Source: Ianthella basta (Eukaryota; Porifera; Demospongiae; Verongiida; Ianthellidae). From it: a DNA stretch of 64,000 nucleotides. Below, in pieces: positions 624-30,560 of this stretch. Location: the NCBI GenBank assembly GCA_964019415.1, contig OZ025874.1:5311092-5375091 (forward strand), in the 5' to 3' direction. The stretch's first letter is position 1. Each line of letters starts with the position of its first letter. A model generated the notes under the pieces. It was given only the letters and a program-made list of their open reading frames with translations, ran no database searches and had not been told where the DNA came from. The position numbers and the translations under genes were made by a program.

Positions 624-1107
624 ACTAATACATATACGCCCTCTGCATTATTGGAGATAATTTGTACTGTCTCTGTACTATTTGTGATGTCGTGAAGAGT
701 AGCACTCTGCTCTAGTCCTCCAAGAAAAGCCAGCTGCAGTAGCAAGTCAAAGTTTCTTCTTGGATGAAGAGAGCTTGTAGCGTCGTACGTGTCCGGGAAT
801 AGCTACCCCAAGCTGCTCTATGAGTCTTGCCCGCTAGACCCAACTTCTCACTATCTAACGGGCGAGGAAGAGAATGAAAGAGGCTGTAAGGCTGTCAGGC
901 AGCGACACAGTCCCCAAGGTTGCAGCGAATTTGTAGCGAATGCGGAGACTGAGCTTACGAAGGTGTTCCACGCGACAGAGCAGTTGGGCTAGACTGAGAG
1001 GCATTTGCTACTGCTTCAGGTGCATATAGGCCTGCCATTTCGCCACCGCGCTGAAGCATTCAAACAGGATCCGATAAGAAGCTCCATGGACTGAAGCAAT
1101 GGCTCAA

Positions 1108-1210
1108 AAGTACATAGGAACCTCAAGCAATGAACGCCTTAGAAGTAGCTATACTTTTGAGGCGTTCATTGATTGAGGTATACATAGGAACCTCAATCAA
1201 TGAACGCATG
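1108..1210. promoter_or_regulatory. Direct/inverted repeat cluster upstream of anchor exon
   Basis: The 20-mer-like unit ACATAGGAACCTCAAxCAATGAACGC occurs twice directly and once inverted within 100 bp, starting about 310 bp upstream of the plus-strand ATG at 1520. The cluster is preserved in copy 2 (~32640-32740). In the inverted segment (~54715-54825) the units are also present but shuffled. Its place just upstream of the duplicated first exon makes a regulatory or replication-slippage origin possible. Function is inferred from position only. Confidence 0.45.
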
Positions 1211-1519
1211 CAGATTATCCAGTTACCAAGCACAGAACAAACCAATCGAGAGCAAGACAAGTCAATACAAAGGGCAAAAGTGTGAATAGCAGCTTTTGAT
1301 CGACCGCACAGGCCCCTATCTAATGTGTTGGTCCGGTCCGGAAATTATACGCAGCCCTGCAGAGCAGCAAGCTGAAATTTTTGGCGGTGTGATTTCGGTT
1401 GCCGTCGATTTCGAGCCGAGGGGTGCGAAACTGACTACATCGCCCAAGTGAACTGACTCTTAGCCGACGTTAGGTTACATCCTGTTTCCATATCCGCAGA
1501 ACAAGGTTAGGAATACGGA

Positions 1520-4500
1520 ATGCTATCCGGAGCAAATGATCCGTATGCGAACAGCAGCTCTTCGGCCATGGTCTTCTACGTCCTGGTTATAATCCTATTC
1601 CTGGCTGTCTACGTGTGGTACAGGTGAGAATAACACTACGTACTAACACCTTTGATGGTTAGCAGCCTGGAGTGTGTTGAAGGATTATGATTTTTCATAG
1701 CAAACGCATGTAAGCCAAACCTATAGTAGAGACTGCAGGCTCAAATATGCCTTCAGTTTTGACAATATGTTGGTAGCATTTTCGGATTCACCTACCTTTT
1801 GCGATCTGTATGAGACTTTTTTCATCCAATTCCGTTAGGTAGAAGCTGAATTACAAGCTTCTGAATATTGTTACCGTACGATTTTTTTCTGACACGTAGT
1901 AATAGGAATTACGGTATGTAGAGTGCGGAATCACATTTCGGCGGCATCATATTTCGGCCACTCGTTCTACACAGCCAAACGCATCCAGGGCTTTAAACTT
2001 GGTACATATGGAGGGCACACCAGTGTAACCTGGGGCTGAAAAGAAAAAGCCTACAGCTGTCTTCAATGTCACACTAGACGGTAGAGAACGAAGTGGCCGA
2101 AGTAATATTACTTCGGCCGGAAGGCATCTTACTTCGGCCACCGTCTGTATCTCCACCGAAAGCCATTCGTTTTGGATTTGGATTTCACTGGTGTGGAGCT
2201 ACATCCTTGCCCTACTCACAGTAACATGCAGAGTATAGAGCGTTCGACGGTCGCGCTGTGGTGCTTCGCTATATTGACCCTGGTGGAGGGATCATACTTC
2301 GGCCACCCTGTATGGAGGTCACCATTTCACGGCCGGCGTCCGTATCTCCGCAAAACGCCTTCATTTCGGAGTTAGATTTCACTGACATCTGGCCACATCA
2401 TTGCCCTGCTCACAGAGGCATCTAGGAGTGAGAGGGCTTTTCAATGGCGCGGTAATCCTTCGTGATATGGGGCCGGGTGGGGGGATCACGTTTCGGCCGG
2501 AAAGCATAATAATTATTGGTCTAGCGTCTATATCTCCATTGAATCGCCTTCGTTCTGGATTGGGATTGCACTGATACAAAGCCAAGTCATTGCAGTACTG
2601 ACAAGAGCTTGTAGAGGCAATCCAGAACGAAGGCGATTCAATGGAGATATAGACGCTAGACCAATTATTATGCTTTCCGGCCGAAACGTGATCCCCCCAC
2701 CCGGCCCCATATCACGAAGGATTACCGCGCCATTGAAGAGCCCTCTCACTCCTAGATGCCTCTGTGAGCAGGGCAATGATGTGGCCAGATGTCAGTGAAA
2801 TCTAACTCCGAAATGAAGGCGTTTTGCGGAGATACGGACGCCGGCCGTGAAATGGTGACCTCCATACAGGGTGGCCGAAGTATGATCCCTCCACCATGTA
2901 CCAGGGTCAATATAGCGAAGCACCACAGCGCGACCGTCGAACGCTCTATACTCTGCATGCTACTGTGAGTAGGGCAAGGATGTTACGCCACTGATTACAG
3001 CACTTTCACGTTCCTTCTAATAGCCAGCTGGCTGAAAGGTGGCCCACTACACATTACCATAGAAACTGAGCGCCCATTACTCAAAGCCAGTACTATCAGT
3101 CAACATGAAAGTACTAAGGTCTGATAGATCTGCCAACGATCTTTCGTTTGATATCAAGTTTGCTGAGTTTCGTTTCTTCTGGTACCAGCGGCGAGCTCTT
3201 TAATTTGACATACCACGCGGTATTAGCGAATCGGTCAGACATTTTTGCTGCGATTGCGCAAGACATCTGCAATATCTATCTATAGTAGGGTCAGGCAGAA
3301 ATCGGACGCCAGATCTCAGCCATAAGCAGATCATTTTTCTTGGTTCTTGGTCTATATGCTCAACAGGGGTATGCAACATGGTACACTTGATGAAAGCCAG
3401 AGTGGCGCCCTGCTTCAGAAGTTCTAGCGAAAAATGCAAAGCGTCCGAAGTAATATTACTTCGGACCGAAGGCATGTAACTTCGGACCGTCGCACGTTCA
3501 TCACGAAGAGCAAAGATCTGTCCACTTTACATGACTGTCAAACAGGCACACTCCAGTCCTGGTCACATCCGAAGTTTCGAATGAAATGTATTCGTCGCGA
3601 CGGAGCATGAGGGCTTAGAACCGAAGGCGTTGCGGTCATCAATAATCGGACTAATTTCCATCAACATAAAGCTGCAGATCGCCTTTTCTTCTCTTTTAGT
3701 GCCTTTTCTTCTAAATACATTACCTCATTTTGTGCTTCGTCAGTCCTGGTCACATCCGAAGTTTCGAATGATTCCTAACATTGCTGGAGTATGTACGTAT
3801 ATAGCCTCGTCCCCAGGCCCTTTTTAATTGCGGGGGAAGAAGAAAAGGGCCTGGTACACACTGTTATGATGACGTCACGCTTCCGTAAGATGGCGCGTTT
3901 GTATATCTCGGTGCCAAACGTCCGCGAGACTTCGTACGTGTTGCATTTGCTTGTCGGAGGTTATCCCCAAGCACCCAAATGCCTTGTTCAGCCCAGTGGG
4001 GTCGAAGGGAGACGTTTCAGGAAGCTGTAGTTAGCATCTGGTAATGTCATTCTAAGAAAGCGACGGTCTGCCGTCAGAATTGCCGAACGAAACCCCAGCT
4101 CATCGCAAACACACTGCGCAAGGTCCGCCGACTAGCTACACTTCGCAGCTTACCATCACATTCAATGTCGAAAAAAGGCAGCACCTTGTAGCGAGTGGAA
4201 ATCCCAAACAGTCTCTCGGTAGCCAAAAGTAAACGTCCTCCCGCTCGTACAAGAGAAGAGCGGCAGCCAGCTGCTCGCGTTTCAGTGCGATGTCAGGCAG
4301 TCCGACACAAAAAAGAGAGTATGAATGCGCCTTCACTGAATCCGCCCTTGAACGTTATACGGATAATATACTGGCGTGTCAGATTCCGTTCCCCCACTTT
4401 TGGGGGAAAAGTTGCGCAATCGCAACAGTGTACACCAGGCCGTCCTTCCCGCCCACGCTAATTATCGCGGACGGCCTGGGGACGAGGCTAGTGTGTATAC

Positions 4501-4753
4501 AGTGTGGTAGTGTTATGTATGAACTCGTTGTGTTGTAGCTACATATGTAGTTGAGCATGTTTCTCTCCCCATTCCACTCTACAGGAAGCCTCAACCACGT
4601 CTCACCTGCGGACAGCTGCTGCTGCTAATTCTCCTCCTCTTCCTCTTTCTTATCCTGGCCCTATACTTGGCATTGTCATGGCTACATGTCACATGTAACT
4701 CCTGCTCTGGCTTCATGTACTATGTCACCCTCCCATCACGTTGGCTCATTTGA
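1520..4753 (+). CDS. Predicted two-exon small membrane protein with P450-type anchor exon (copy 1)
   Basis: Exon 1 (1520-1623, 34 codons plus 2 nt) ends in CAG with donor GTGAGA. Exon 2 (4585-4753) follows a pyrimidine-rich acceptor (…CCACTCTACAG) and continues the split codon (AG+G) to a TGA. The product would be 90 aa: a serine-rich N-terminus, a hydrophobic helix around residues 17-33, a short basic stretch, then a long leucine-rich helix (about 43-63) and a Cys-containing tail. Exon 1 is a near copy of the signal-anchor exon of the P450 at 54288-54391; exon 2 resembles nothing I know. The intron holds a giant palindrome and a MITE. It converges on the P450 copy ending at 6659. Phase-perfect splicing supports it, but expression is unproven. 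Confidence 0.5.
2095..2118. repeat. 24-bp perfect palindrome
   Basis: The core CCGAAGTAATATTACTTCGG is flanked by GG and CC. The same 20-bp core occurs at 3445-3464 flanked by GT and AC, and both are followed by GAAGGCAT-like sequence, so the two sites are related. Confidence 0.8.
2201..2983. repeat. Giant palindrome, ~365-bp arms (copy 1)
   Basis: Left arm 2201 to ~2562 and right arm ~2617 to 2983 are reverse complements over almost their whole length, with a ~55-bp spacer. The right arm carries an extra 7 nt (near 2896) and the left arm an extra 3 nt (near 2513). Apparent ORFs here are mirror images of each other and are not genes. The arms contain repeated TTCGGCC / GGCCGAA motifs. Confidence 0.92.
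3443..3466. repeat. 24-bp perfect palindrome, second site
   Basis: Shares the 20-bp core of the palindrome at 2095-2118. It is also present in copy 2 (~34963-34986) and, with one variant flank, in the inverted segment near 53996-54020. Confidence 0.8.
3802..4490. mobile_element. MITE with 9-bp target duplication (copy 1)
   Basis: The element begins TAGCCTCGTCCCCAGGCC and ends with the exact reverse complement. Each end also folds into a subterminal hairpin (AGGCC…GGCCT). Flanks are GTACGTATA (3793-3801) and GTGTGTATA (4491-4499), a 9-bp target duplication with two differences. A 9-bp duplication is typical of Mutator-like elements. There is no transposase ORF, so it is non-autonomous. It lies in the intron of the small membrane protein gene. 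Confidence 0.85.
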
Positions 4754-6658
4754 ACATGTGAGGCGCTTTCTGTGTATTTGGCTGAGTGCGTGACACATTT
4801 GCTGGTGTGACAGTGTTTCTTTCATTCTGTAAACTCTTGGGTAGAGATCCCTACCTAATACTGCTGGTATTGTACTTTCATAACAAACACATTTCTTCCT
4901 GCCCATCGAGACTAGCTTTAGTGCACATGTGGTTATGATATGCATTCCCTATTTAACTGATGTCTTTTGCTTCATTTGATGAACTTCTCATTTGCAACTC
5001 TTCAGAGTAAGCAAGTATTTACGTGTTTATAGCGGATCTTATGCAACAGCATCTCCTCTTCACCTCATGCCAGTCCACTCTTATAGTCCAAGATTTATGT
5101 TGCTGCTCCAAATGTCAGCGAGTTACAGCCTTAAGTACTGCCAGCATACAGATCAATTTGCCTTTGTTGTGTTCTCCTGTGGAAGCAAAACTGAATACAC
5201 ACCATGACCGCTGTTGGCACATTAGACTGGAAGGGCTGGCTGGTCAATATTTTTCAGCATTCATCATGCCAACATGGCACATTGTGTGTGGTGCATGTGA
5301 TTCAGACGGTGATAATGCTGTACACTATCAATTTGCTGTCTTTCTGTACAGGACTACTACCCGTCACATATTCAAGTACTTTCACAAGTTAGAAGTATTA
5401 GATAATCAGCTGGTTTTGTAGCATTAGCAAATTATTAACGTCTTTAACATACCAGGCTATTGGAATAGTGTATTTTACCATAGTTGTGTACTGCTTTGGG
5501 TGCACTGTAGAGTTTGGTGTAAATTTATAATGTAGTTGTATTATTATCTGAACTGTCAGTAGAAATGTTTAGCATTAGTTTTGTTGTGCGTCAGAGTGGA
5601 ATTGAGAGAACGCGCAATTTAATAATTATTAATCCTGTACTTATGGGGTGCCAAAGGCATCCCTATATTGCATGTTTTCACTTTTAGGTATTTGTATGGC
5701 TTTGATCTTCACTTAATTTGATCCTCGCCATAACAAGCGATAGTGGTGGCTGCCTACAACAATAACATTCTTAGACAGATTCATCTGTATAATATCTCTC
5801 ATAACCTTGTCCATAAAGACGTCAGATAGGTATGGGGAAGGTACGTACACACCCCTGTCTCGAGAGCATACCTTGCCTTACTATCAACCTACACATCAGA
5901 TGTTTTGTTTGCCATGCACTCATATACATGCACCTCACTGCCACAAAGTTTTATTATTATAGTACTGTTATAATTATAGTCAACACTTCAAACACCTTAT
6001 ACCAGCTACAGGGATACTCAGAAGGATGATCTCTCTGTAGTTTGGCACTCATGCCCTACTTGATCTTCTCCTGTGTGGGGGTGGCTTAAATTCCCTCATG
6101 CTTTCTCCACACCGGTCTCCACATATTCATCGGCCTAAAGCTAGTCACGGTCACTTCCTGCCTTTATCAGCATTTCTCCTACGGGCTATATATACCGCAT
6201 ATGCCTGCTGCCTTCCCCCCATTCAGCTTGTCTATAATTATATATATATTCAAAGTTAGCGTGCATGTTAATGACCCGGGTTTTGCATGCATGGAAAGGC
6301 CCTCCTCCTTAAGCTTGTTGCATGGACTGGCTGGTCCCCCTCTTTGCATGGACTGGCCCTCCTTGTTCCAAAGGTTTTTCCACCAGTGGTTTTGCTATAC
6401 CTTACAGGTACACACTGCACTGTCCCTACATTTGCCCTTGTTTTTGGAGGAAACATTTTTACACACCCTTTGACTATAAATGTAACTAGTACATAGCTAT
6501 ATAACAGCAGCATATATTATACATGTATAATAATGACACATACACTTAATACATTGTATATGGCCAGGGTAACTGCATGCAGCTTATATACCAATACCTA
6601 TTATACCTATACTATACTATAGAGCTAGGTACAGTGTTGCCTGAGTACAAATTTCCTT
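4754..6658. other. Gene-free spacer between convergent genes (copy 1)
   Basis: This holds only short, low-complexity or AT-rich ORFs. It separates the stop of the plus-strand membrane protein from the P450 stop and probably contains both 3' UTRs. The counterpart at 36276-38178 is nearly identical. Confidence 0.6.
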
Positions 6659-7379
6659 TTATTCATGATCATCTCTGGCTGTAAACTTCAGTTGGATTGG
6701 GTCCTCTGGCATGAGGCTAATACCAACCACTGTCTTCAATGGGACCTACAATGGCAATGAGGAGATCATTGTCTGCATCATTTCACAAATTATTAAACAC
6801 ATCAATTCACATTTATGTCATATTCTGCTGAGACAGTTATGTCCCCTCTGCATGTAAATACTTGTCAAAGCATGACTGTAATGGTGGCCATGTAGAATGA
6901 TTTCTGCTTTTTCTTATGTGACTAACAGCTGATATCACCATAGTGACCATGTACACTGGTAAAGTATTCATGCATACCTGTGTGTCCACTGTTCTTTCCA
7001 CAATGAAGTTTTGCAAGATTTCAACAACTGCCATTTTGATCACCATCACAGCATATCTGTTTCCAATGCAATTTCTCGGACCTTCACTAAATGGGATGTA
7101 AATGCAAGGTGGACGCTTCTCTATTTCTTCTGGAAGAAATCTAGGTGCAAAGAATTGCAGAGTTGTTATCACATTTGCCTAAAAAGACTGTCTCTGCATA
7201 TATAGAAACACCTGAAAACACACCTATCAGGATCAAACACTTCTGGTTGATGCCACCACTCTGGATTGTAGTGAAGGTAATAGATTGGTATTTCAATAAC
7301 AGCTCCAGCAGGAATGGTGTAGTTTCCCAATCTGGTGTCTGTTGAAATAAGACGAGTAATTCTGTACATTGTTGGTAGG

Positions 7380-7510
7380 TGGAAAATGGGGGGGAGAGGT
7401 GATACACATACTAGAAATAATAAATATTTGGACGAAAAAGGATAAAAACAAGTAAATGCTGCTACACAGTAGAGCATTAACCATGACCCATACATGCAAG
7501 AATGCAGCAC
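7380..7510. repeat. Dispersed foldback-family fragment
   Basis: It contains an ACAGTAGAGCATTAACCAT stretch related to sequences at ~16990-17090, ~20485-20560, ~38940-39020 and ~48825-48910 and to the foldback at 16520-16785. It sits just upstream of a P450 exon, inside the intron. Confidence 0.55.
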
Positions 7511-10013
7511 TGTGTAGCTATATCGGACTTTATGGTAACATCAAAGGAATATGGTGTACGCTAAAGTAGTTATTACCTGGTGATAACTTAGTTATCTCTG
7601 GGTCACCTAATGATAACTAAATATTAAAAAGGTAGGTAATAGTTGTCACCTATTGGTACAACTATCACCTCTTGACCTTTAGTTGTTACCCTGACATGCA
7701 TGGTTGATGTTCCCCTGATGTATCCTTCAGTCATTTGCATGTACAACTCATGCACATCCTTGCCCTGACCCAAGTGATGCTGCCTTGGGTAGTCTTTCTG
7801 GTTGTGCCAGTTGCCCTTTGTGAGCACGGAAGCACTGTTCACTGACTCATGTAGGGCACTCATGTGAGTGTAACACGAATTCAGGAACTGAATAGGGTAC
7901 AGGCCTAATTAGCTAGTATTGTGACAGACAGCTCCAAACTATACATAACACTGATTGGTCGACTTGCACGTAAAGGCAGTGGACAGTGCACACAACAAAA
8001 CTAAGGTAAAGTAGGGGTTCCTGACAACGGGTTTCTTAACACGGCGTGCCACCTATCGCCTGTATGCGAAGGAACAGATTCTGTGTTTGCATGCATTTAG
8101 CGCAGGCGTCAATGTGATGACAGACTGGGTGTCCCTGTATCCTTGTTCCTTCACTTACAGGTGGACAGCAGTGCCCCCTATTTTGAACACCCTATCTTGT
8201 TCTGAACCCCTCTTTACCTTATCTGTTCCTCAAACGCAGCTTGCGGGCGTCTTCAAGCCAGGAATAAAGCTTGACAAGATTCTATGGGAATCTTCTTCTG
8301 AGGTCTGGTGTCTGTTAACTTGAAATACATATTTAGATATGCCTAGACTAACTCATAGTTGTGTTAAATGGTCCAACATACTCAACAGAAACACAACTAT
8401 CAACAAAACTCACAATGCAGGACATTTCAATCCTTGTGCTGAGATGTCCAGCATTTGCACGTTCATTGACAGTTGTGTTCCTGTGCAGTTCATCCTGGCT
8501 TATCATTGGATCTAAATGTAATGTGTTCAAAGCAAACTGAGTGAATATCCCACTAGCATGCAGACGTTATGTCATCCCTACCTGGAAAATGGTGGGTAAA
8601 TCCTTAGTGTTTCCTTCACTACCATATCCAAGTATTCCAGGTCAGTGAGGACATCATACAAAGACGTAACCTAAACATGCAAACAAGGCAACTAGACCTA
8701 AAATACACGCACTTACACTTGACAAATCATTCAGCACATGAATAGTAACATTATAATGAATGTTAATGTTCTGAAAATTCCTTCCAGTTTTGACGAATGG
8801 CCATGCAATATGGTAGAAATTAACGACTTAGCTCAGGTCATCTCAATGACTAAGCTTTGCAGGCCGTCTAAGAACTTAGTTAAACTATTTAGTGTGTTAG
8901 GGACATATAATGGGGATTTACATAAGTTTAGTAGTCATTTCAGAAGTATTTTGCAATTACACGACTATAGAGCATAGTCCCATTAACCCCAACACTAACC
9001 AGTTCTTTCCAAAGTTAAGTCCTTATAGGGATGGCCCAAAGTAAAGATGCTAGAGAGACAGCCAAAGCTGAGATTTTAGGGAGATAGCCTGAGCTAAGTT
9101 GTTAGAGAGATGGATAGCATAGAATGAAAAGGCAGCAAACATCACCAAACGTGACCAGAGGGACTGTTATTCAGAGGGGGGGGAGGGGCTTTGGAGGCTT
9201 GAGTTCCCCTCCTTGGGCCAGATCTGAAATAATGTTCCTCAGCAAAATGCTCTGAGGTATTCATCCAACAGGATTTAATGGCCTAAATCATTTAAGGCGT
9301 AAGCTCAATAGAGTCTGGTGTGGCTGCACAGGGATCTAAATTAAGTTCTTTCTTAATTCTGGCTGCCGGCAGCCATTTCTAGTTTTGTCATATTGTCACT
9401 GTGCAGTAAACAAATAAAGCAGCTGAGCCCCCCATCAAAGGTTGGGCTAAATCTGTCACTGGTTATTGGTGTGACCATGTGACAGCATCATGACTCTTCG
9501 TGATCCACCCCCTGATCTGTAATCTGTATGCCCCCCTGATAGAAGCTGGTTATACAATTCAGATTTAGGTTCATTGAACATGCATGTCCTTGGGCTTCAC
9601 GCTCGGTGTGAATATCCAATAAACCCTCGTTCTCGTTGTATATATATATCAGATGCATACCCACCTCCAAGTGTAAGAGACACAACATGACAACTAACCT
9701 TGTTGTTTTCCAAGCAATTCCTAATCTCCCTCTCCAACTTGCTCTGCACTTCAGGGTTCATGGCAAGTGAGTACAGAACAAAAGCCAAAGTGTGCGATGT
9801 GGTATCAGTACCAGCAAGGAGGAAAGTAACTGTCTGGGCAACTGTTTCATCTGCACTCATTTTCTCATCGGCGTCAATAATTAACTGCAGGATATCTTGA
9901 TGCTGATAAAAGCCACAATGAGAAAACGGGAACCAACAGCATTCACAGTTTAACTATGTTTTAGTCCAGCTCTAGCTAAGCCATAATATGCATTACTACT
10001 GACATGCTATATA

Positions 10014-10117
10014 CAGTGGAACCTGTCTAAGATGGTCACTGTGTTTGGCAGCCACCTCTCTAAAACAGCCAGCCTCCCTGGCCTCAAATAGGCAGCTGTC
10101 TTAGACAGCCTTCACTG
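10014..10117. mobile_element. Mariner-type MITE, TA-flanked (copy 1)
   Basis: It starts CAGTGGAACCTGTCTAAGA and ends with the approximate reverse complement, flanked by TA on both sides. It is 104 bp. In copy 1 the right terminus is damaged (AGACAGCCTT in place of AGACAGGTTT). Confidence 0.75.
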
Positions 10118-10359
10118 TAGTAACTTTACAGCACAGCTAAGACCAACTTGTCTTGGTGACAGAGAAGGACAGAATCTGCAACTGCTATGATCAGACAATT
10201 AGGAAGGACAATTAGGAACAGCCAATAGACCAGTTGCATAATAAGTCACGTGCTGCCCAAACGGGGCACTACTAAAACTCGAGACCATAACAGTGTACAT
10301 ACGTATAGGGCATGGGAGGTGCAAAGAAAAGCGAAATGGCGTCTGAATGAACAGGAACA

Positions 10360-12473
10360 ATGTTGCCAAGCAGTGGTGAAAAGGAAAAAGGCTTACCCGA
10401 CAAGTTGTGGACCGTGAATCAAGTGCGTGACTACTTGCAGAAGCAAAACAGATGACTCACGGGCAGAAAGAACGATCTCCAGTGCCTGTAAGTGCACAGA
10501 CGCAATGATTACGTTGTTGCTGGCTTTTGTTTTCTGTTCTCAATGTGAGGCTCTTGTTTTGTGCTTGCCTTGTTATTCAGTGCCCAGTTTTATCACCAGC
10601 GTCCAGAAGGTATCCCCTCGTTGAGTCGGAAGCGCAAGGGTACTGATGGTGCTACTCCTGCTGCAAAGGAGCCCTGTCCGGAGGTCTGGCCGACATCTGG
10701 CTGGTCTGACCAGCCCGACATACTCCCGGTCGTCACAACGCCAGTGATCCTAGCACAACTTCTGCAAACTGGAAAGGCTATATATGTCCCATGATACAGT
10801 GCAGTTAACGCAGAAGTCTCTTGAGCATGGCCATGAGTTCTTTTTTGGGGGGTATGTGCATGATGTGAAGGTGTGCAAAGCTTGTGCCAAATTTTATGTA
10901 CAGTCAGAATGTTGGGCATCACAGCGTAAGCATGTGGAATATACACAGAAAGTTGTTCTGTCTGAGGTGCAGCAGTTAAATGACCCTGGAATGGAACCCA
11001 AAGAAAAATGAATAACTGCACAGCTGCTTGTAATATATGCTTCTTGTGTTCCTTGTCCTGCTGGAACAAGTGGTGGTCTGTGCCAGCATTTGTTTACACT
11101 ACTCATTCTCTTGCAGCACCATGCACTCACATCTCCACCTGCAGCATCTCTCCCTGGCTCAGATTCGATCACAAGTGGTAAGAAGCTATGAAGACCCCGG
11201 GAGTGAGACATCACGCCAAAGACAATGATGGAGACCATGGTAGAAAATGCCAAGGATCCATCACAAAGGAAAAAAACGCTATAACACGCAGCCTCTATGA
11301 AGCAAGGGGACCAGCAGCCCGGAAGCTATCCAAAGACATCCAGCACCAGCGATCTACCGTATGTCCAGATGCAGTATGGTGAAGCCCTGCTCGGCAGTGT
11401 ACTCTCCTACCAACTTGTTGGTAGTATGGATACATCTAGGGAACAGGTACTGCTTGCTAAGAAGAGAGGAGATCGGTTGGAACGAGCTGCTGAAAAGAAG
11501 AGGAAATTCTTGTCACAATCTAACCATCCATCTTTGTCTTCTTCTTGCCGATGGTCTGAAGAAACCATACAAAAATATCAGAGGTGAGACGCAGAGGGCT
11601 ATGATGTACCAGATGAGGACTATGAGGCATGGCTGAGTTCACTGCCTACAGGGTTACCAACAGAATCAACTGACCTTCACCTCTCTGGTACGAGTGCTTT
11701 ACCTGAAATGGGAGTTGTTCCTTCTGCGGTGCAAGCATCAGATAGCTCCATCCAATTTCTTGTCCTACCACTTGGTTTGCAAATCGATCTCTCAAACGTC
11801 ATTGCATGGGCCACACTCCATCTCCCTTGATGAAGCCCAACGCATCCAACAATCGACTGTAGGACAAGCCTCAAATGCGCGGTGGCTGGAGCTGCATGCA
11901 TGTACTATTGCCTCCTCAAACTTTAAGAAGATTATTAGTCGTCAGTCTGCTTATACCATGGAGCTTTTCAGCTCAATCTTTGAACAGCATGACATTGGTC
12001 ATGTACCAGCCATCCATCATGGGAGAGTGAATGAAAGCCATGCTGCACAGTTGTATTTTGAGATAAAGAATGATGAAGGAAGGCCTGTTGTCATTCAGGA
12101 GTGTGGCTTATGCCTACATCAGGACTACTGACTTCTTGGTGCCCCCCCAGGTCATGTTGTGTATGGTAACTCTACAGATGACTGGCCTGCTGGAGGTGAA
12201 GTGCCCCTACAAGGTGTACACACTTCACAAGGCTGTCAGAGAGGCATGTGACGAATCACAGTTTTGCTGCACGCTGATTGATGGACAGCCACATTTGAAG
12301 ACAACACAAGCACATTATAAGTCCAGGGCCAGATGGCAATCACAGGTTTGCATTGGTGTCACTTTGTAGTTTGGGTGGGCCATGGAGACCTTCATGTCGA
12401 ACGTATCTGCTTTGATCCTGAGAAGTGGGAAGGTGAAATGCTGCCCAAGCTAGTAACTGCCCACCAACAGTAG
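10360..12473 (+). pseudogene. SAP/SWIM/YqaJ-type nuclease ORF of the transposon (copy 1)
   Basis: Across several frames I read, in order, a SAP-like start (LWTVNQVRDYLQKQN, then an in-frame TGA), a SWIM-type zinc motif (CPAGTSGGLCQH), and a YqaJ domain. The YqaJ part has ASNFKKI, HHGRVNESHAA, a GAxPG site and GLLEVKCPYK, the Glu/Lys pair of this nuclease fold. YqaJ is a lambda-exonuclease-like fold found in viral recombinases and in proteins carried by invertebrate DNA elements. Frameshifts and stops make this copy non-functional. Its role in the element (host- or end-processing) is inferred. Confidence 0.65.
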
Positions 12474-12589
12474 TACATGGACCTGTGTACACCACGTTGA
12501 CTTTTGACGAGTTTGGTGACAAAGGTGAGATGCCAAATCACCAGCCTGAGCCTTGTTGTTTTATCCATAGGTCTCTTCATGTGAGAACC

Positions 12590-13443
12590 TCAGCACTCAT
12601 CTGTGTCTGCAATCACCTTACCACGATAGTTCATCAGCAGACAGCAAGCAGTCCAAATTTGGTTGATGGAGCCAGCCATTGAGAGTGAAATCACCCCTTG
12701 CAATAGGTGATATTGCTGCTTTACCTGGCCAATAACTCCTTCAACATCTCTGGCAATGCGCTGTGTTGTGATAACATCCTCTTTCTGGAAGTGACCGGCA
12801 CCTTTAAAAGTAAGAATGTTCAGCAAGATGTTGGGCTTTGCAAGCAAGCCTTGAATGTCAAAGCCACAGTCAGCCATTATTGCTTTACCTTTGGGTACTA
12901 CCTGTAACAGATCAAGGAACCTAGACTTGATTGTCAACTCACAGTCACTGATTGAACCATTGAACAGAGTACTGATAAAAAGAAAGACACCATTTGGGGC
13001 AATACCCACCAGTCCTTTCATTGTAGCATGCGACTTAATAGCATTGTGATTCGGGATCTTTCCTAGCTTGCTCCAGTTAAACTCGGAGTGTATCGTACTC
13101 CAGTGCACACATAGCCACTCTCACCTCAGCTGCCATACCCAACTTCTCTCTCATGGCATGGGGCGAGTCTTGATTGTGGCACTCCAAGCAAATATGGTAC
13201 TGCCTCGCATTTCAGGTGACGTGTTTTTGGCTTGATCTCACCACTTCCTTGTCGCGAACCAGTGGAAAAGTCGGCAGCAGTGAAATGAGCGCAACAGACA
13301 GCTGTAGACGAAGTGATTTTGAAGTGTGGTCCCACATCACGCCTGATAGCCACAAGCCAACGTTTCCTCAGGTCTATGTTCGCCAGAAAGCCATGAAAAG
13401 ACAAGTTGGGACACTTGTCATGATGGTTGTTGCAGTTTAGCAC
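12590..13443 (-). pseudogene. THAP-domain / DDE (HARBI1-like) transposase remnant (copy 1)
   Basis: The N-terminal part (13443-13126) is a THAP zinc finger: CNNHHDKC, a conserved hydrophobic core and CAHF, the C2-CH ligands. After a stop/frame change, 13108-12590 encodes the C-terminal two thirds of a DDE_Tnp_4 (Harbinger) catalytic domain. It includes GLVGIAPNG, the SDCELT aspartate, KGKAIMADCGFDI and the IARDVEGVIGQVKQ helix. The first catalytic aspartate region is missing, so an internal deletion joined the two domains. Harbinger elements normally need this transposase plus a DNA-binding partner. This copy cannot be active. Confidence 0.78.
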
Positions 13444-16400
13444 CCATCAGTGATCACGTGCTGACATTCTGCTACTGACTGGATGAAAGAGGCCACGAAA
13501 GAAGCTGAGCAAGAAGTAGAAACACTTTCCAACAGACCTACTGCAATAATAAAATGGCGCACCCAAAAGGAGCTTGCCCCGTTTGGGCACGCCATTTTAT
13601 TATGCAATCGGTCTATTAGGAAGGACACATGTATCATTACAAATACAGCTAATATTCACATCCCGTCTAGCATGCTGTGTAATCATTTGTTATCCCAGAC
13701 TGTACCAGGTGTGCAGTGCGCACTTCAGTGGCAGACTGCTGACTTCTTCAGCTAATATATGTAGGACATGTCCTTCACCATTGTAGAATTACTGATAAGG
13801 CCAAGCCATTTCATGAAGCACCAAACATGCAACACATGGGTCAATTTGAAACAGAATGTTAACCTTGACTGGAGAGGCTTTTCTGGCATTGATCAGTTCA
13901 GTACTGGAGTCAATGATTCTCAGCATGGCCTTACCAGCTGGGGTTCTGTCTATCATCATTGGTACAATCCTCATGAGCCATGGAAAAGCACCTACAAGTG
14001 TGCAGAGCAAGGTACTTGACAAAACAGCAGCTGCAGAGTGCAGGGTTAGTATGCCCAGCAAATGTCTTTCAGTTTGCAATCCTGATCAGTTTCATCTTCC
14101 ATGTGGAGGTCATCCTGTGTATAACACAGACAGATAAACATGCACTGCTACTAGCTTAACAAAGCAGGGTTACTGATTGAAGTTGTTGTTTGTACAATCC
14201 TTATCTGGCTGTAAACCTTTGCTGTTTCTTAGATTGGGAATTTAGAAATCTTCGAAAATCTTTCATATTTAAACGATGAACAATATTGGCATAAAGTACT
14301 GATCGGTTCTTAAACACATGCGCTTACAGCTCTGGCAGGATAGAAATATGCGCCTAATTATAAAAGGATATGTGCTTAACATACGAAAGAGTATAGAAGT
14401 TACTATTATAAGCAAATGTTATATTAGGATAGCCACCACGTAGTGCAGTACGTGAGTTCTCATTTAAGTGCTATTTTACTAGTTTATAGTCATTATTACA
14501 CTTCAGGCAAATGCTAGGCTACCAGGGAGTCCTTTATGCACCTAATAGAAGGGGTGAACCCCTGAAATCACTAGGCGCCTAACAAATGGGGTTAAAGAAA
14601 TGGTAAAGAAATGTGCACTTAACAGAGAATATGTGCATATAAGGAGGATGTGCTTAACAACTGATCAGTAAGGTAACTGATTTGTGAACTCACTTGCAAC
14701 AATACTGGGCACGGCTATTTGTGCAGGCTTAAAATGCTGAAATATAGCCATAGCATCTCTTGCAAAATTCACTGCACTGGTCTCTTCTCCCTCTTGATCA
14801 CCCAGCAGATTAAGCAACCTCCCAAAGAAAGATGCCGTATTGAGTTCTATAGTGAAATCTTTGCACAGCGGAAGAACATCTATACTTTGTTGATCACATG
14901 ACAATCTTGTCACCTTGTCAACGAGTCTCATGGTACTACTCTTGACAATAAGGCTCTAACTGAAGAATGTGCAAGAATGCAGGTGGACACTATACCATAA
15001 GTTCGTATTCAAATCTACTAACTTGAACAATGTTGCATACAAAAACATGTGAATCTACACACACTAACATGCCAACATGTAAATGCAAGCATACTTGCAT
15101 GCATACATAGTATGTGCATATAGGTGACACACAATGTTACCATTTTTAGCCTTTTGCTTGTGAACATCGGGTTGAGTATCTGTCTATGACACTTCCAGTC
15201 ATCCTCTTGAGCAGACAACAGAGATTCTGTATTACTATTTCGACAAAACCGTAGGATCTTGGCAAAGAACTACAGTGTAAAAGTGCAAGAGACCACATGT
15301 TGCTCACACATCATGAGATAGCTACAATAATAAATCTGAGAAAGCACCACATCCACTATAACCAGTTGTACATAACCTGCAATAACAAATACAAAGCACA
15401 TAATTATGTATAAAAACAAGTATTTTGTAAATGTAGACCTTGAGCGCCGTCATCTTGAATCGCCCAAAATATACATACATACATACTCCATTATGAAATG
15501 AAGCCATAAGAATACCTAAAAGTGAAAACAATATAGGGGCGCCTTCTGTTCACTAATCCAATCAAAATAATCTCCCCTATCTCCTCTTGATGACGTCCAT
15601 GTCACTGCCAACTGACAACAATGCAGGAGCTCAACAGAAGAACTCTCAGGCATCCGTGAACCTTCTTGTTGCACTCCTTCGCCATCTTCCCTTAATCCTA
15701 TTCTGTAGGGAGGCCATTTGACAAGAAATGAAGGAATAGTTCGCAGTGGCAAGTGTGTATTACAGCAGATACAAAATGGCTGTGACGTCGTCATAAAACT
15801 TTCACGCATACTCTGCCCGCAACGTACAGCTACAGGATTTAGAATCACGAGCGAAGCAATTGGTATGCTCTCTGAAATTTAGAATCATTGTTTAGACTCA
15901 TGTTACCATGGCAACACAATCTATATTGCATTCATCACTTTCATACCACACTTACTCTGTTTCTGAAGCTACTGAACTCTTTAGCCAAGACGGTCCTAAT
16001 TAGCTCAGGCTCTGCAATAATAATCACTGCCTGATAGCCAAAATAGAATCTGCATAAGTAACAATAACAGATAATAAATTAGTTAAATAATCAGACAACA
16101 TGGTAGTGATGATGGTGGTTGTCTATATATATGCTGTACTACAAACGAAACTAGTATATAGTCCCTGTACCAGGCTGACACTGGCGAAAAGGGCTACTCA
16201 AGGAAAAGAGTCGGTATATACCATGTGGATCTAACCTTACATCTAAACGAAAGTGCATGTTCCCACAGAAAGTAACTTAAGTACTCTACAGTTTACACAT
16301 TTCGTCAAATTCTCATTCACTTTCTAATTCTTTTCCATCATGCAGCTGTAAGGTAGCCTGGGATAATTCCATTACTAGAGTAAGTCCATCACTAGGGTAC

Positions 16401-16519
16401 AATCTGGACTCTTATTCGCTAACAACAGACTTCAGCACAACTCAAAACCACCACTATACAGACTATTTACTGCACTCTGCAACACGTACTATTTGGGAAT
16501 GAGCGCACCCCTTCTCAAT

Positions 16520-16785
16520 AAACAAGAAAGAATAAAACTTTTACAAAAACTGCTCAAGATGTAGGGCTGGCATAAAAAGTACAGAAACAAGGAAAGGCTA
16601 CTACACACTGGAGCATTCGCCATTGTCCCTACTTTGAAGAGTGCTGCACCATATAGTACTACAATCCTGCCGTAGGGACAATGGTGAATGCTCCAGTGTG
16701 TAGTAGCCTTTCCGTGTTTCTGTACTTTTTATGCCAGCCCTATGTCTTTAGTAGTTTATGTAGAACATTTTATTCTTTCTTGTTT
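16520..16785. repeat. Foldback MITE, ~110-bp arms (copy 1)
   Basis: The left arm (AACAAGAAAGAATAAAA … GGAGCATTCGCCATTGTCC) and the right arm are reverse complements with a ~40-bp centre. The counterpart is at ~47707-47985. It belongs to the dispersed family carrying GGAGCATTxxCCAT and lies in a P450 intron. Confidence 0.75.
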
Positions 16786-16867
16786 CTGCACTTTTTATGG
16801 AGCATAAGCTCGGATATAAGACAGCACGGTAGTGCTGTCTATGTAGGGATGGCAGTGGTTGTTTGAA

Positions 16868-16951
16868 TGCTTGCTTTGCCAAGCGGGGCGGACACTTGCC
16901 ACGACTCCCACCATGTTGCTTGGCCAAGTGGGGCAGATGCTTGCCACGACT
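16868..16951. repeat. 45-bp minisatellite, two units (copy 1)
   Basis: The unit is about 45 bp, with GCTTGCCACGACTCCC and CATGTTGCTTGGCCAAG as its recognisable parts. Copy 2 has three units at ~48375-48491. Confidence 0.6.
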
Positions 16952-17159
16952 TAATAAAATTGACATAATAAATTTTTTTTACTAAAATAGTAAGGATGCA
17001 GGGATGGCATAAAAAGGACAGAAACAAGTAAAGGCCGTTACACGGTGGAGCATTAACCATCGTCCCTACATTCAAGGATGTAAGACAAGGTGCAACTTTC
17101 CAACGGCCATCCCTACATAGACAGCACTACTGTGCTATATTCACAACTTTTACACTACA

Positions 17160-18972
17160 ATGAATATACTGGAATACAAAGGGAAGAAAGCAGCAGAAAA
17201 TGCTAAAACACTGGTAATAAAGGGTAAGTCTCAAAGACAACCGAAGCCAACAGGAATCGTTTTCGATCATCTACACCCGTACAATATGATACCACTTTTG
17301 ACTCTGTTTGACAGTATCCATTTTCCGAATAGTTTTTGTCATTTGTACATATGTGGAAAGTGTAAATGCAGAGAACTTGCTATGGATACAGGCAAAGACG
17401 TTAAATGTAAACCAGGCCCTACTGACAGTTTATTGGATACTCAATTCACCAGTGATGTCACTTCTTAATTAATCACTTGGTGTAAAGTTTCACTCATCAT
17501 GGGATTACCAACAATTAATACTTATTCCAGTTCAAAGTCTACAGTCTAATGAACATCTAATACACTCCACAAGACCATAGATTCCATTTGCCATGACAAT
17601 GTGCATCTAAACAATGATCCTAAATCTCATAAAAGCATCCCAATTGTTTTATGTGATTCTAAATCCCATAGACAGAAGTGGTGGGCAGAGTGCACATGAT
17701 GATAAATCCCATGCATGCACGTTGTGAGAGAAGAGTGTGTGCGAAGTGTATATGACTTCATCACAGCCTTTGAACCAGAAAGAATAGAAGGTACTCATGA
17801 AGTCATGGATGGTCTTATCAACTCAAGCCAGAACATCTAATCCAATGCTGGTGCCACATCTGTAGCTGCTAACAGTGATGAAGACAGACCCCACACACTG
17901 CTGATCGTCCATGCCTGACTACTGAAGATTTTAGTGTCATTTCAGTCAGCCATATGCCGTTTTATATGCACTTGTCGCTGTGAAGCATTCTTTCAGTTTT
18001 TGTCAGATAGTGCCCTACGGAGCAAGGGCAGGTGGCAAAGGAGTGCAATGAGAAAAATCACGTGTGCCAGAGAGCTCTTCTACTGGGCTTCTCATATCAT
18101 CGTTGGCGACCAGTAATGCAGATATCATCAAGAGAAGAGACAACTTTCACTGGGCTAGGGCACAGCCTTGGATCTAGAATACTTACTTTTACATGCTGCC
18201 TAATCACTGTCATCAAGGAAGACGTCATCAAAAACGTCTTGGTCGGCAGATAACTATTACATACACCACACTATACATAATCACATGCATGCATGAGCAG
18301 AAACCCACACCCATGCTCACTCACCCTGTTACAGTCCCATACTTGTCAATCAAATGCTGATATGCCTCTAAACCAAAAGGACCCTAGGTGCAAGATATGA
18401 GCAATAAAATTGGTGACTCAGTGATTCACTAGTTGTTCCTTAATGTGCCATGTGCATGTGAAATGCAGAAGGCATTTGTATCACGAGTGCGAGAATTAAC
18501 TTACGTAAGGTAATAGGTACGGCTAAAAGCTTCCTTTAGGGTACATTGCTTTTGCCTATGTAACTTTACAACCATATAACTAATTGTCTTCAATTGTCAA
18601 GTAAATTTTCTGAAATTCGGGGTCAATCATTAATTGACATTTCCAAAATAAACTAATTGAAAGTCAAACATATCCCCTCAGATGCAGTCAGAGACCTTCA
18701 AGAAAACCCTGTCTAGTTAACTAACCATCTAACTCAGTACCCAACCTATTAAGATCTATTTGTATATATCTACTGACAACATCTCGTGCACAGCTATGTC
18801 AAATGACAATCTCGTGGCCTCCTGCATAACGAAGACAAACTGGCACAGGACTGATGACAAAATCTCACGTTCTCAGTCAATTGAAGTAGGCTCTATAGAG
18901 GAAGTAATCAATCCTCGGACAGATGTATTCTCGGATCGCTGCAAGGCACTCCTAGGGGCCCGTAAGTCATAA
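17160..18972 (+). other. Unrecognised decayed coding stretch in P450 intron (copy 1)
   Basis: Plus-strand open frames at 17160-17468 (102 aa with a Cys-rich CGKCKCRE patch), ~17640-17840, 17934-18116 and 18760-18972 (70 aa) follow one another inside the P450 gene, antisense to it. Copy 2 repeats them (48981-50815) with mixed conservation and several frame changes. It looks like an old transposable-element ORF, but I cannot name the family. Confidence 0.3.
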
Positions 18973-19689
18973 ACATCCAGTTACAGATCAGGCACTAGAT
19001 AGGGGTGGGAGGTATTGGCACATAGTACCTCAGTATTCTTGCTAAGATAATTGCAGTATAACTACATAGCTACCTACTATTTTGACTAAAATGAATTACT
19101 GACATGTAAATCACTGTTACTTACACATATTTGGAAGATCACAACTTCTAAGGCTAAGACAGATGTTGATTTATACTTCATAGCTGCATTTGTGTACACA
19201 GTGAACAATGTTCGCGTGACATTTGAATTAGTGTGACGTCACAAAAATGGCTGCTGTGTGCAAAGGTAAAAATTAATTGCCTACAATTGTACAAAAAAGC
19301 ATTAGAAACGATTGAGAAGCGAACGAATTGTAGCAGAATCAATAATATACCTGATTCGTGATATTTACAAGGGAATACCATGTAACTAACTGGTATTTCG
19401 ATATCTGGTTTTTAGTTATTGTTCGTTGCTATGGCAATGCCAGAAAAATCAAAGGAAAACACTGAGGTATACATCCTCTTAGGATCTCCAGGCTCTTATT
19501 ATTAGCCAATCAGCTTCATGTGCAAAGTTAACTTTATTTTAAAACTAGGTGAATACCCGCCCTTCATTTTTATCTTCATACCACAAAAAGCCTTCTCAAT
19601 GACCACGGCACAGCTGTTTAGTGGAAGCAATGGTGAAATAACTGCTTTGCTAGGTGTAGTATGTGACAATATTGTGAGATTGCAGACTG

Positions 19690-20690
19690 CAATTGCATGT
19701 TCTATAGTGAAATCTTTGCACAGCGGAAGAACATCTATACTTTGTTGATCACATGACAATCTTGTCACCTTGTCAACGAGTCTCATGGTACTCCTCTTGA
19801 CAATAGGCTCTAACTGAAGAATGTGCAAGAATGTAGGTGGACACTATACCATAAGTTTGTATTCAAATCTACTAACTTGAACAATGTTGCATACAAAAAC
19901 ATGTGAATCTACACACACTAACATGCCAACATGTAAATGCAAGCATACTTGCATGCATACATAATATGTGCATATAGGTGACACACAATGTTACCATTTT
20001 TAGCCTTTTGCTTGTGAACATTGGGTTGAGTATTTGTCTATGACACTTCCAGTCATCCTCTTGAGCAGACAACAGAGATTCTGTATTACTATTTCAACAA
20101 AACCGTAGGATCTTGGCAAAGAACTACAGTGTAAAAGTGCAAGAGACCACATGTTACTCACACATCATGAGATAGCTACAATAATAAATCTGAGAAAGCA
20201 CCACATCCACTATAACCAGTTGCGCATAACCTGCAATAACAAATACAAAGCACATAATTATGTATAAAAACAAGTATTTTGTAAAATGTAGACCTTGAGC
20301 GCCGCCATCTTGAATTGCCCACAATATACATACATACTCCATTATGAAATGAAGCCATAAGAATACCTAAAAGTGAAAACAATATAGGGGCGCCTTCTGT
20401 TCACTAACCCAATCAAAATCGTCTCCCCTATCTCCTCTTGATGATGTCCACGTCACTGGCAACTGTTCATCTTCTTCTAACCATCGTCCCTACATTCAAG
20501 GATGTAAGACAAGGTGCAACTTTCTAACGGCCATCCCTACATAGACAGCACTACTGTGCTATATTCACAACTTTTACACTACAATGAATATACTGGAATA
20601 CAAAGGGAAGAAAGCAGCAGAAAATGCTAAAACATTGGTAATAAAGGGTAAGCCTCGAAGACAACCGAAGCCAACAGGAATCGATTGCAG
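19690..20690 (-). repeat. Partial re-duplication of P450 exons inside copy 1
   Basis: 19694-20475 repeats 14840-15620, including the whole C-helix exon (WKCHR, at ~19995-20111) and the first half of the following exon. 20480-20685 repeats 17066-17264. Copy 2 has neither at the corresponding place (~51530-51830) and carries ~290 bp of other sequence there. The unit ATTGCAGACT stands at both borders (~19681 and ~20684). The duplicated exon half lacks the +1 insertion of the main copy, so it preserves the unmutated version. Confidence 0.85.
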
Positions 20691-22218
20691 ACTCTCGAAA
20701 ATGCTGCATAACCTTCTTCCAGCTGCGTGAGGACGTCTTGCTGCAACAAGGAACGCTTTTCTTCATAAATGCTTCAGACAGGAAGAACAAATTCTGCATC
20801 ACTCAATCCAAGCTCTCAAATCAAGCACACATCACACCCAATCACATGCGTAGCCATGGTAACATAGAAGAATGTGATAAACCACATGGTTCACCCTATG
20901 TAAACAATGTTTGACATAACCCACAAGCGCGCCCTCGTAACTCCCCCATCATGAGGCAAAAACACAGGCACTGAAATAGGTATCATTGAAGATGTTTCAC
21001 AAAGCACTATCAATATAATAATAAAAAATGCGACAGTGGACCTTTAATATGATGGGGGGCAAATTACTGTGGCTGGAAACCATGGCTTGCATGACTAAAA
21101 CTCTGTGCTAGAGCGCAAGTTCTGAGTTTCCTCCTCTCGCCTCTTGCCCTTGAGCTGTGAAGTTGGATATCTTTGCCACATGGTATAGCCAGCTCGCAAA
21201 CACTCACTAACATACGGTATGCCAAATTGCACTATATCAGTTTGTCAAACTAATTACCAATTCTGAAGTCACTACACTATAATGACACTTACTTCTCTGA
21301 ACTGTGCCAACTCCTTGTAGTTTCCAAAGAACACCTTGGGAGTAGGTCCTGGGATGTTGTGCCTTTTCAGTACTTGATAAGGCTCATAGATGAAGCTGTC
21401 GAAAGAAAACTTCAGTTTATAAATCAGCTTACAGTACAAGAACTATGGATTCAGCACATGCAATAAGCAGCTCAAACTACATGCATGGCTAGCAAAGCAC
21501 AAAAATACAGCTATCAAAAAGCCAGAATGTGTTGTGATGACGGTAATCTAACCCTCAGGTTTTGATGATAGCACTTAATATTACTTCCAGACTTATTTAC
21601 CATGTAAACAGATCTGCGGCAGCTATAGTATGAGTTCAAATGCTTTCAGATACCACCTGTCATCAAGAAATCCATTGCCTTGTCTAATAACTTGTGGCTA
21701 GATCTAGATGAGTAAAAGATTAAATTTTAATAATAGGGCCAGACTTGAGGGCCCTTACTCTCACAAGTTATTCTGCAAAATACTTAGAGTCTGAAGTTGT
21801 ATTTATTTATTCATACAGACAACATCTGTTTCGGATGGCGGCATGTACACTGCGACACTAGCATGTACATTCACTTTTATATTGTACAAACTTGGGAGCA
21901 CTCAAGTCCTACCCACAGCTGAAGTTTTGAAGAAATCTCTTCTCAATGACAGAGCATCGCATGCTATAACCGGAAGTGGTAGATGCATCAATAATCGGAT
22001 GCATATCTGCACCATATTCCATGCCTTTAAGCACATGTTTGTTTCCGTGTTAACCAAGAAATTGGCTATGGAAAATGCACCACAAAAATAGCAGTGGTAT
22101 GCAAGGTTCATAGTCTGATAGATACTTTTGTTCATAGGGTGAAGTCTCTCTCAAATAATAAAATTATGCAAGGTTTCAGCACTGCTTGAGGTTTTGACTA
22201 AATTGAAAGGGTAATCAC

Positions 22219-22592
22219 TTGGTATTATGCCTGACCTACCAACTACACCAGTATTGGTGTCTCAGTTGGCAGGGGGGCACGAAGCCCTATTGGTTGGCAA
22301 CCAGTGATCGCCTCCCCCCAGTCATCCAACAAAGATGGAAGAGCCATAGCCAGCTGTTTGCCCTGAATGGGGCTCATCAGTGTGGCGTACTGATGGTTGA
22401 TGGTTGGATGACTGGCTGCTTCCGTATCCACCACAAGTTAAACACTTGTGGTTTCAACAGAAACAGACAAGGGAGGCTACAGTCGTCACGACTGAAGCGT
22501 TGTCAAATGGGGTCATCCAGGATACTCTAATATATGACAACACAGTGGAACTGCTGGTAGTGCTTTCACCCCAATTTGAACAACATTGTTAG
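22219..22592 (+). other. Unrecognised ORF pair upstream of P450 exon 2 (copy 1)
   Basis: Two overlapping plus-strand frames (about 100 and 60 codons) are conserved in copy 2 (53334-53707) with several amino-acid changes. The longer frame is rich in Trp and Cys. In copy 2 this lies in intron 1 of the P450, antisense. No family is recognised. Confidence 0.2.
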
Positions 22593-24514
22593 CCACAGCA
22601 GAGCCAAAGGAAGCACAAAATGAGGTAATATAATTAGAAGAAAAGGCACTAAAAGAGAAGAAAAGGCGATCTGCAGCTTTATGTTGATGGAAATTAGTCC
22701 GATTATTGATGACCGCAACGCCTTCGGTTCTAAGCCCTCATGCTCAGTCGCGACAAATACATTTCTGACCATGCTTGGCATCCATGACTGAGATGTGCTC
22801 CTGAGCAGAGTAACATGCACAGGACAGAATAGATTAAAATTAACGCGTCACTAGCAGATGTTTCAATATACTTAACAGTGGCCAGTACAGTGCACGTGTG
22901 CACATGTGCGGATCCACAGTCAATTGTACAGGCAGCATTGATGAAGCACATAGTACATAAATAATCACACACCTGTTTACAAATTCAGAGCAGTCACTTC
23001 ACATGATTGTATCCTACCTGTAGCTTTACTCTGATGGGTTCAGTTAGAGACTCTTCTACTTTCCTAAATTCATCAATTTCACCTTCAGCAACCTGTTTGA
23101 ATGGATTAAACCATCCCAGTGCTTCATCCAGTAGGTCAAAGTACTCCTCCCAAGAGGCAACCCTGTCCAGGTACACATTAAGGCAGTCTGCTGTTTCCTT
23201 CTGCTGACGAACGGCTGAAGAGAAAGTGTCTTGGAGCTCCTTAACTGGTTGGCTATCACCAAAGAGGAAACTGTCAGCAGATTTTTGGAGAGGTGGAAGG
23301 CCCTTCTGTGCTGCTTGTGTCTGAGAGATCATTGTCTGCAATAATTACAAAACATGCAGATGGAGAATACAGAGACTAAAGGCATTTCACATATAAATTT
23401 CTGCTGAATGTCACAGGAGTGAACTGGTGGTTAGGGAACAGAAAGCAGTGCAACTGTTCAGCACATATTCACCTCTAGCTCCTGCTTGAATGCCTCCAAA
23501 TCATCGAGGAAGACCCCAATTGGTCGAGCATTAATCTCAGTCTCCACTCGAGAGCTCAAGTCAATGGCAGACTGGGTGTACTGTCCCAGTCCTTCCCTGA
23601 ACTGAGTCCAAGCATTGTACCTGTTTCCAAGGTCATCTCTCCAGGACTTTGCAGCTGCAGGGAGCTGCTCAGCATCCGCAGTAGCAGTGTCCACTGCCTG
23701 CTGAACTTCAGGCACGATCTACACCATATACAAACAGCAAAAGTGACACAATGTGAGAAAAGTGGAAGTGATGGTACAAATAAGTTCAGACAATTAAGTG
23801 CACATAAGAGGTTGTAACAAGCTTAAGTAGTAATGTGACACACCTACTTTCTATCAGATGGAAAGAGAAGGCTGGAGTAGAATAAAATTTTAAAATTTGT
23901 TCAATGTAAAATAACAAGAATTGATGATATACCGACATTTGTTACCAGGTGGCTAGCTTAACCAGATCACCATAGCCAACGGCATTGCAAAAGGAGACTA
24001 ACCGAATTATAAAAATTCGCTTACTGAGGTTCCACCTTTCTGTGCTGCCTGAACTGCCTTTCTCAAGCTCTTCAAGGCAGTCTGAGTCTGCTGCACCAAT
24101 GACTTACTGTCATCAACCAGTGCTTTGTGTCTCTTTTCCAGCTCAGGCCCAGGCATGGCAGATGGGGAGGGAAGGGATCTGGATGGGAAAAGAAGAAGAA
24201 TGGTTGTAGGGTATGAACACAGTTTTGGTGTTATATCCAGAAATTACCATTAATTTTGACCTCTTGCCTCTGCTGTGGCTAACTGAAAGCAACCGCCCCC
24301 TCTTAACAGTTATTGCTAATACCACTACATTTCCATACATTAGAAATTGGAATTCATCTCAATGATATACAATCATGGTCATACAAATGGACCAATACAC
24401 GAGGTGAAAGAATGCAGGACATCCAGGCCATCACCAACCTCACTCACAGTCCAGTGATTCCCCCAATGAATGCTATAATAAATATATTGTGCTCCTCAAC
24501 AGTTGCCATGAGTC

Positions 24515-25244: not shown

Positions 25245-25384
25245 CCATGAGTCAGACGTTCCATTTCACATGATACTGTGTGGTGCTATACTTTCTAAGA
25301 TAATCTTTTGGTCAGTCTGTACTAGAAGTAACCTCATAAATTGTTTATGAAAATGATCGTTTCTTGGATAACCATATGGTGGTA

Positions 25385-30060: not shown

Positions 30061-30287
30061 CCTCTAGCAAGTGGTCAGTGTAGTTGCAACTATATATATA
30101 ATGGGTTTAGCTAATTTATAAGTATTCTAGAAATCTGTGTAGCTATAAATGTTGCTGCTACGGAAACAACTGTTTGTTCAGCACTTTATTCATGAGAGCA
30201 TGCCTGAACATGGTATATTGCAAAGGAATAGCTGCAAAATGATGAGACTATACTACAGATGAAGCCACCAATAAAATGAGTTGACAA

Positions 30288-30485: not shown

Positions 30486-30560
30486 GGGCACTGTGTATAT
30501 GTACAGATACAGGGCACAGTGTGTACGCATGTACAGTTAGGAGGTAGGGGGCACAGCTTA
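30478..30560. repeat. Short version of the GTACA minisatellite
   Basis: About two units of the array found expanded at 55505-55712, in opposite orientation, adjoining the PHD exon. Confidence 0.65.

Follow-up and report, generated by a model that had tools for sequence, protein, structure and literature searches.

An inverted, probably detached first-exon fragment of a CYP3-like P450 gene and the probably fortuitous reading frame joined to it in phase

Detritus (solo) exons of P450 clusters are lone P450 exons that lie beside a P450 gene and stem from partial duplication. The locus described here likewise has a lone P450 exon next to a P450 gene, and differs in that the exon is inverted and retains its 5' flank. 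Partial duplicates with recruitment of flanking sequence form an established class, to which fog-2 of C. elegans and Hun of Drosophila, whose new part is about 33 aa, are assigned (PMC3449122). The first-pass annotation knew of no described counterpart, and for the kind of event this statement fails. The likeness to fog-2 and Hun lies in a duplicated 5' gene part, a breakpoint inside the gene and a unique terminal part taken from the flank; both are named genes with reported roles, whereas the structure here is a prediction from the sequence of the window, the window being the whole 64-kb stretch of DNA analysed. Young adjacent inverted duplicates of C. elegans with unique exonic sequence in one copy are described as well (PMC2728529). 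They share with our locus the adjacency, the inverted orientation and the unique exonic sequence in one copy, but the arms here are diverged by about 1.5-4% and carry insertions. Hybrid transcripts that join CYP3A43 exon 1 to exons of CYP3A4 or CYP3A5 are reported in PMC1890557. Both cases have a CYP3 exon 1 that meets exons not its own at canonical splice sites; in the CYP3A43 hybrids these exons come from other P450 genes, whereas our join is a prediction. A literature search for an inverted-repeat P450 chimera gave no match, which is weak evidence. The 5' part of the parent is common to both loci (632-1729 and 3285-3738) and the breakpoint lies in intron 1. If spliced as predicted, the structure would belong to the class of partial duplicates with recruitment, and its expression would make it a very young example of a membrane protein newly derived from the promoter and targeting exon of an enzyme. 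For now it mainly illustrates how readily an orphaned exon that has a good donor is taken for part of an in-phase "chimeric gene".

The minus strand of the window carries a spliced P450 gene in two copies, with the following features:

54288-54391, minus strand: exon 1 linked to the P450 (right arm), in phase with exon 2 of the gene
52510-52408, minus strand: P450 exon 2 of copy 2, start placed at 52510 by its acceptor, carries the IPGPTP block
38179-52510, minus strand: predicted CYP3-like P450 body, copy 2, nine exon blocks after exon 1, some middle exons unplaced
6659-22765, minus strand: P450 body, copy 1, with matches to the nine exon blocks of copy 2

The stop codons are at 6659-6661 (copy 1) and 38179-38181 (copy 2). 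Three of the ten ORFs scanned match PF00067 above cut-off, two of them being tandem copies of one exon. The translations contain AGTDTT, ETLR and FSEGPRNCIG stretches, which we take to be P450 motifs. For an incomplete query assembled from 10 exon blocks, CYP3A4, 3A7 and 3A5 account for the best 14 of 361 matches to solved relatives. The predicted parent is therefore a cytochrome P450 of the CYP3-like class, CYP3A proteins being its nearest solved relatives. Exon 1 is assigned to this gene because it joins exon 2, with its IPGPTP block, in phase. On the strand of the P450 it occurs once in the window (54391). Homology of the copy-1 gene to copy 2 stops within intron 1, at 22765 (region 22610-22900), and an own-strand exon 1 for copy 1 is absent from the stretch searched. 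A pattern for alternative first exons (ATG, 20-59 codons, phase 2, strict donor), beyond whose reach lie other kinds of first exon, gave 0 candidates upstream of copy 1 in 22766-31529. Among ATG exons of 20-59 codons across the window, the three exon-1 copies alone combine a phase-2 donor with a 15-residue hydropathy of at least 2. Copy 1 may lack a promoter; alternatively, 22765 may mark an assembly join.

Two further features lie inside the copy-1 gene. In segment 19699-20465, which is 97% identical to 14844-15614, P450 exon block x5 occurs a second time, accompanied by x6 in part (at 19.7-20.1 kb); copy 2 has a single such block. A P450 intron contains an ORF for a DDE_Tnp_4 transposase at 12590-13120 (minus strand; PF13359, E 1.4e-25), with a counterpart in copy 2 at 43812-44255.

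The exon-1 copies on the plus strand, at 1520 and 33049, sit past the 3' ends of the P450 genes within longer inverted arms. Self-comparison of the window aligns 632-1729 and 3285-3738 with the reverse of 55281-54182 and 54178-53725; the tandem copies of these left-arm pieces, 32161-33258 and 34805-35258, reverse-match the right arm too, and pieces of 28884-30736 reverse-match 56991-55318. The duplicated fragment consists of:

632-1519, plus strand: duplicated P450 5' flank (promoter side) in the left arm, about 0.9 kb
1520-1623, plus strand: duplicated P450 exon 1, 34 codons and 2 nt, phase-2 donor CAG/GTGAGA

It also carries part of P450 intron 1. Exon 1, with its canonical donor, encodes an anchor-like hydrophobic helix and is identical to 54288-54391 (minus strand) at 100 of 104 nt; three changes are non-synonymous and one is synonymous, and the three replaced residues remain hydrophobic (V/L, F/L, V/L). 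Compared with the flank of the P450, the copy at 632-1519 (888 nt) has 30 substitutions and 24 indel columns. Over 632-1729 against 55281-54182 on the opposite strand the identity is 94.6%. The inverted duplication of the P450 5' end exceeds chance, and the initial proposal that exon 1 and its promoter side were duplicated in opposite orientation at the 3' flank of the P450 is borne out by the exon match and by the arms. The arms are diverged by about 1.5-4% through substitution and by large insertions, whereas the tandem units differ by about 0.2% in this region; the arms have therefore not exchanged recently. On this ground we rejected an invertible P450, a reading under which the gene would keep a first exon after the arms recombine.

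Downstream of the donor, the predicted intron is a patchwork:

1624-4584, plus strand: predicted intron, with P450 intron-1 remnants 1624-1729 and 3285-3738, split, then insertions
1730-3279, no strand assigned: insertion that is not in the right arm, contains palindrome 2193-2991
3583-3740, no strand assigned: 156-nt P450 intron-1 segment and GT, between the two copies of a 30-31-nt direct repeat
3802-4490, no strand assigned: element whose terminal inverted repeats, 18 nt each, are 3802-3819 and 4473-4490

The P450 intron remnant is interrupted after 1729. The motif CTATAGTAG at 1721-1729 is repeated at 3280-3288, and we infer that this repeat at the edges of the insertion is a target-site duplication; the right arm has one CTATAGTAG followed by a few extra bases, GCCGTA. 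The direct repeats that bracket the 156-nt segment, 3553-3583 and 3741-3770, are found in the left arm only, and the edge of the segment is the point where the homology of the copy-1 P450 to copy 2 ends. Segment and repeats are read as the probable scar of a rearrangement. The element with terminal inverted repeats has a partial relative at 24515-25244, within which a minus-strand ORF, 24696-25070, resembles by eye the start of a RecQ-type helicase; Pfam returned no match to this ORF at E 0.01.

The first-pass annotation had proposed that exon 1 is followed by an acceptor and an exon that carries the split codon to a stop. Both are present, with acceptor CTCTACAG/G at 4584/4585, and the arrangement recurs in copy 2:

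4585-4753, plus strand: putative terminal exon, completes the split codon AG/G (Arg), 55 further codons, TGA
33049-36275, plus strand: copy-2 counterpart of the structure, 33049-33152 joined to 36107-36275, also a 90-aa ORF

Joining 1520-1623 to 4585-4753 gives an in-phase ORF of 90 aa with two hydrophobic segments and its stop codon at 4751-4753. PF00067 is absent among the matches of the product at E up to 1; the predicted protein has the anchor exon only and is without the P450 catalytic domain. Five Pfam rows (E 0.0024 to 0.11), all below curated cut-offs and overlapping the hydrophobic segments, were rejected as matches of composition. In a prokaryotic contig collection 588 pattern matches gave 0 confirmed relatives of the 90 aa, which says little as the collection is prokaryotic. 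Within the window, at E up to 0.01, 4493-5010 matches just itself and its tandem copy.

How often such a join arises by chance was estimated with an ad hoc pyrimidine/AG score, used in place of a published splice model and with thresholds set after the site had been seen. There are 8548 AGs on the two strands together, and behind 7.9% of them the required phase stays open for at least 55 codons. The stretch from exon 1 to the P450 stop has 18 acceptors with a score of at least 14.5, three of which open at least 55 codons: 4585 (55), 5006 (66) and 6227 (81). The same score was applied to 1000 first-order Markov samples of 1624-6661 (shuffles) and to 48 real, half-overlapping 5-kb tiles from both strands, whose counts are inflated because the target and its tandem copy are among them. 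A score of at least 14.5 together with at least 55 codons turns up in 61.5% of the shuffles and in 30 tiles out of 48; requiring a hydrophobic helix in addition lowers this to 15.3% and 12 of 48. At a score of at least 13.5 the figures are 82.1% and 38 of 48 for at least 55 codons, and 39.6% and 24 of 48 for at least 40 codons with a hydrophobic helix. Since shuffles and tiles often yield the same, the 90-aa ORF and its hydrophobicity are unremarkable. The full score of 18.5 with at least 55 codons, the helix not being required, is found in 1.1% of shuffles and 8 of 48 tiles. The acceptor at 4584 is very strong: its score is reached by 12 of the 8548 AGs, including the target, its tandem copy and one P450 acceptor (40188), and the best AGs near the nine P450 block starts range from 13.5 to 18.5 on the same scale. 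The in-phase join is unusual just in acceptor strength, as judged post hoc by a home-made score.

We consider it probable that the structure is a detached promoter/exon-1 fragment of the P450, possibly transcribed, with a fortuitous 3' exon. The matches of the arms show that a segment spanning the P450 5' flank, its exon 1 and the first part of intron 1 was duplicated in inverted orientation past the 3' end of the gene; the P450 was probably the source of the copy, and repair or template switching the likely mechanism. The intron remnant has gained two insertions, and the unit as a whole, about 31 kb, now stands in tandem. The promoter, if it works, would drive a transcript toward, and antisense into, the 3' end of the P450. 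A strong acceptor arisen by chance at 4584 may lead some of this RNA to be spliced there, and the resulting ORF is most likely fortuitous, without selection as a protein.

A possible reading, though one we doubt, is that some of the layout, and chiefly the tandem unit, stems from an assembly artefact in which two haplotypes, each with one inverted fragment, were joined. The unit, about 31 kb long, is seen in self-comparison as matches in pieces between 1-22765 and 31530-53880, and its identity is a mosaic: 99.6-99.9% per kb in the first 7 kb, mostly 94-98% further on, and 99.3% at 19 kb. This pattern suggests conversion, recombination or joined haplotypes, and the unit junction at 22765 lies in sequence repeated by the arms. 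A joined pair of haplotypes leaves the inverted arms unexplained, with their large insertions and substitutions of about 1.5-4%. The artefact and any reading of the fragment can hold together. The intactness of the structure in copy 2, put forward originally in its favour, stands as an observation and loses its value as independent support: the units are about 99.8% identical around the exon-1 fragment and the putative terminal exon, and the two copies of the chimeric structure are not independent because both come from one tandem duplication.

It is unlikely, in our estimate, that the locus is a genuine young gene in which the P450 promoter and anchor exon are spliced to a recruited exon to encode a 90-aa two-helix membrane protein. 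The canonical donor, the very strong acceptor and an in-phase ORF in both copies speak for it, as do the hydropathy peaks of the two segments (2.54 and 3.29 over 19 residues) and the roughly 0.9 kb of P450 5' flank that accompanies exon 1. Against this, chance accounts for the length and phase of the ORF, and the hydrophobicity of exon 2 tracks a pyrimidine-rich tract (66% pyrimidine over the exon, 71% C+T at 4606-4680), in which codons with a central T encode Leu, Phe and Ile. The two insertions that split the predicted intron weaken the gene reading as well. Codon preference in exon 2 (55 codons, training set of 790 codons) is ambiguous: among stop-free stretches it ranks at the 78th percentile for raw codon score and at the 94th for synonymous choice, the latter arguing against a fortuitous exon. 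The comparison of the tandem copies, suggested at the outset, yields too few changes for power. Substitutions amount to 0.20% in 1-1519 and again in the intron, 0.31% in 4754-6661, 0 of 104 nt in exon 1 and 2 of 169 nt (1.18%) in exon 2, where one is silent and one changes W to G. With these changes and with the three replacements and one silent change of exon 1 relative to the P450 copy, no sign of constraint on the predicted ORF is visible, at a power kept low by the small number of substitutions; that the three replaced residues remain hydrophobic speaks against a fortuitous frame. Of the two-helix protein gene initially proposed, the in-phase join survives, but it lies within chance except in acceptor strength, and constraint is not apparent.

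The position of candidate polyadenylation hexamers bears on both the young gene and the detached fragment. The predicted intron, 1624-4584, is free of AATAAA and ATTAAA on the plus strand, so a transcript has room to reach exon 2, a point against a fortuitous exon. These two hexamers are also absent from the plus strand between 4753 and 6791, which weighs against the young gene, as none occurs within 2 kb downstream. The first ones after 4753 are at 6792, 7419, 7623 and 8263, all within the P450 gene, and with the nearest about 2 kb past the stop a transcript would enter the P450 gene first. This fits the idea that the inverted promoter yields RNA antisense to the P450 3' region and so affects expression of the P450, exon 2 being irrelevant; the roughly 890 bp of P450 5' flank facing the 3' end of the gene on the opposite strand points the same way. 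We rate such a role as rather improbable, and it can hold together with the detached fragment as preferred explanation. Similarly improbable is the combined proposal of a new, translated gene for a two-helix membrane microprotein, founded by the duplicated P450 promoter and anchor exon with a recruited pyrimidine-rich flank as its last exon, convergent with its parent P450 and perhaps regulating it by antisense.

That the left exon 1 would be ancestral, the original first exon of a different small gene, and would have been captured by the copy-2 P450 through recombination in the shared 156-nt segment, is highly improbable: the 30-31-nt repeat confined to the left arm and the divergence of copy 1 at the edge of the segment would agree with capture, but exon 1 fits a P450 anchor in phase with P450 exon 2, and the one pattern searched upstream of copy 1 revealed no alternative first exon.

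The window has other coding features outside the fragment and the P450. A single-frame ORF of 357 aa at 58260-59333 looks by eye like a multi-pass receptor, with no Pfam match at E 0.01. A spectrin-repeat match has an E of 1.2e-6, just below the Pfam cut-off; with this match and the spliced P450 the window has a eukaryotic look. The right arm contains an ORF with a PHD finger at 55486-55893 (PF00628, above cut-off), preceded by a repeat-rich stretch, and arm sequence near this ORF, scanned as its left-arm copy 29232-29687, weakly resembles a retroelement integrase, below cut-off.
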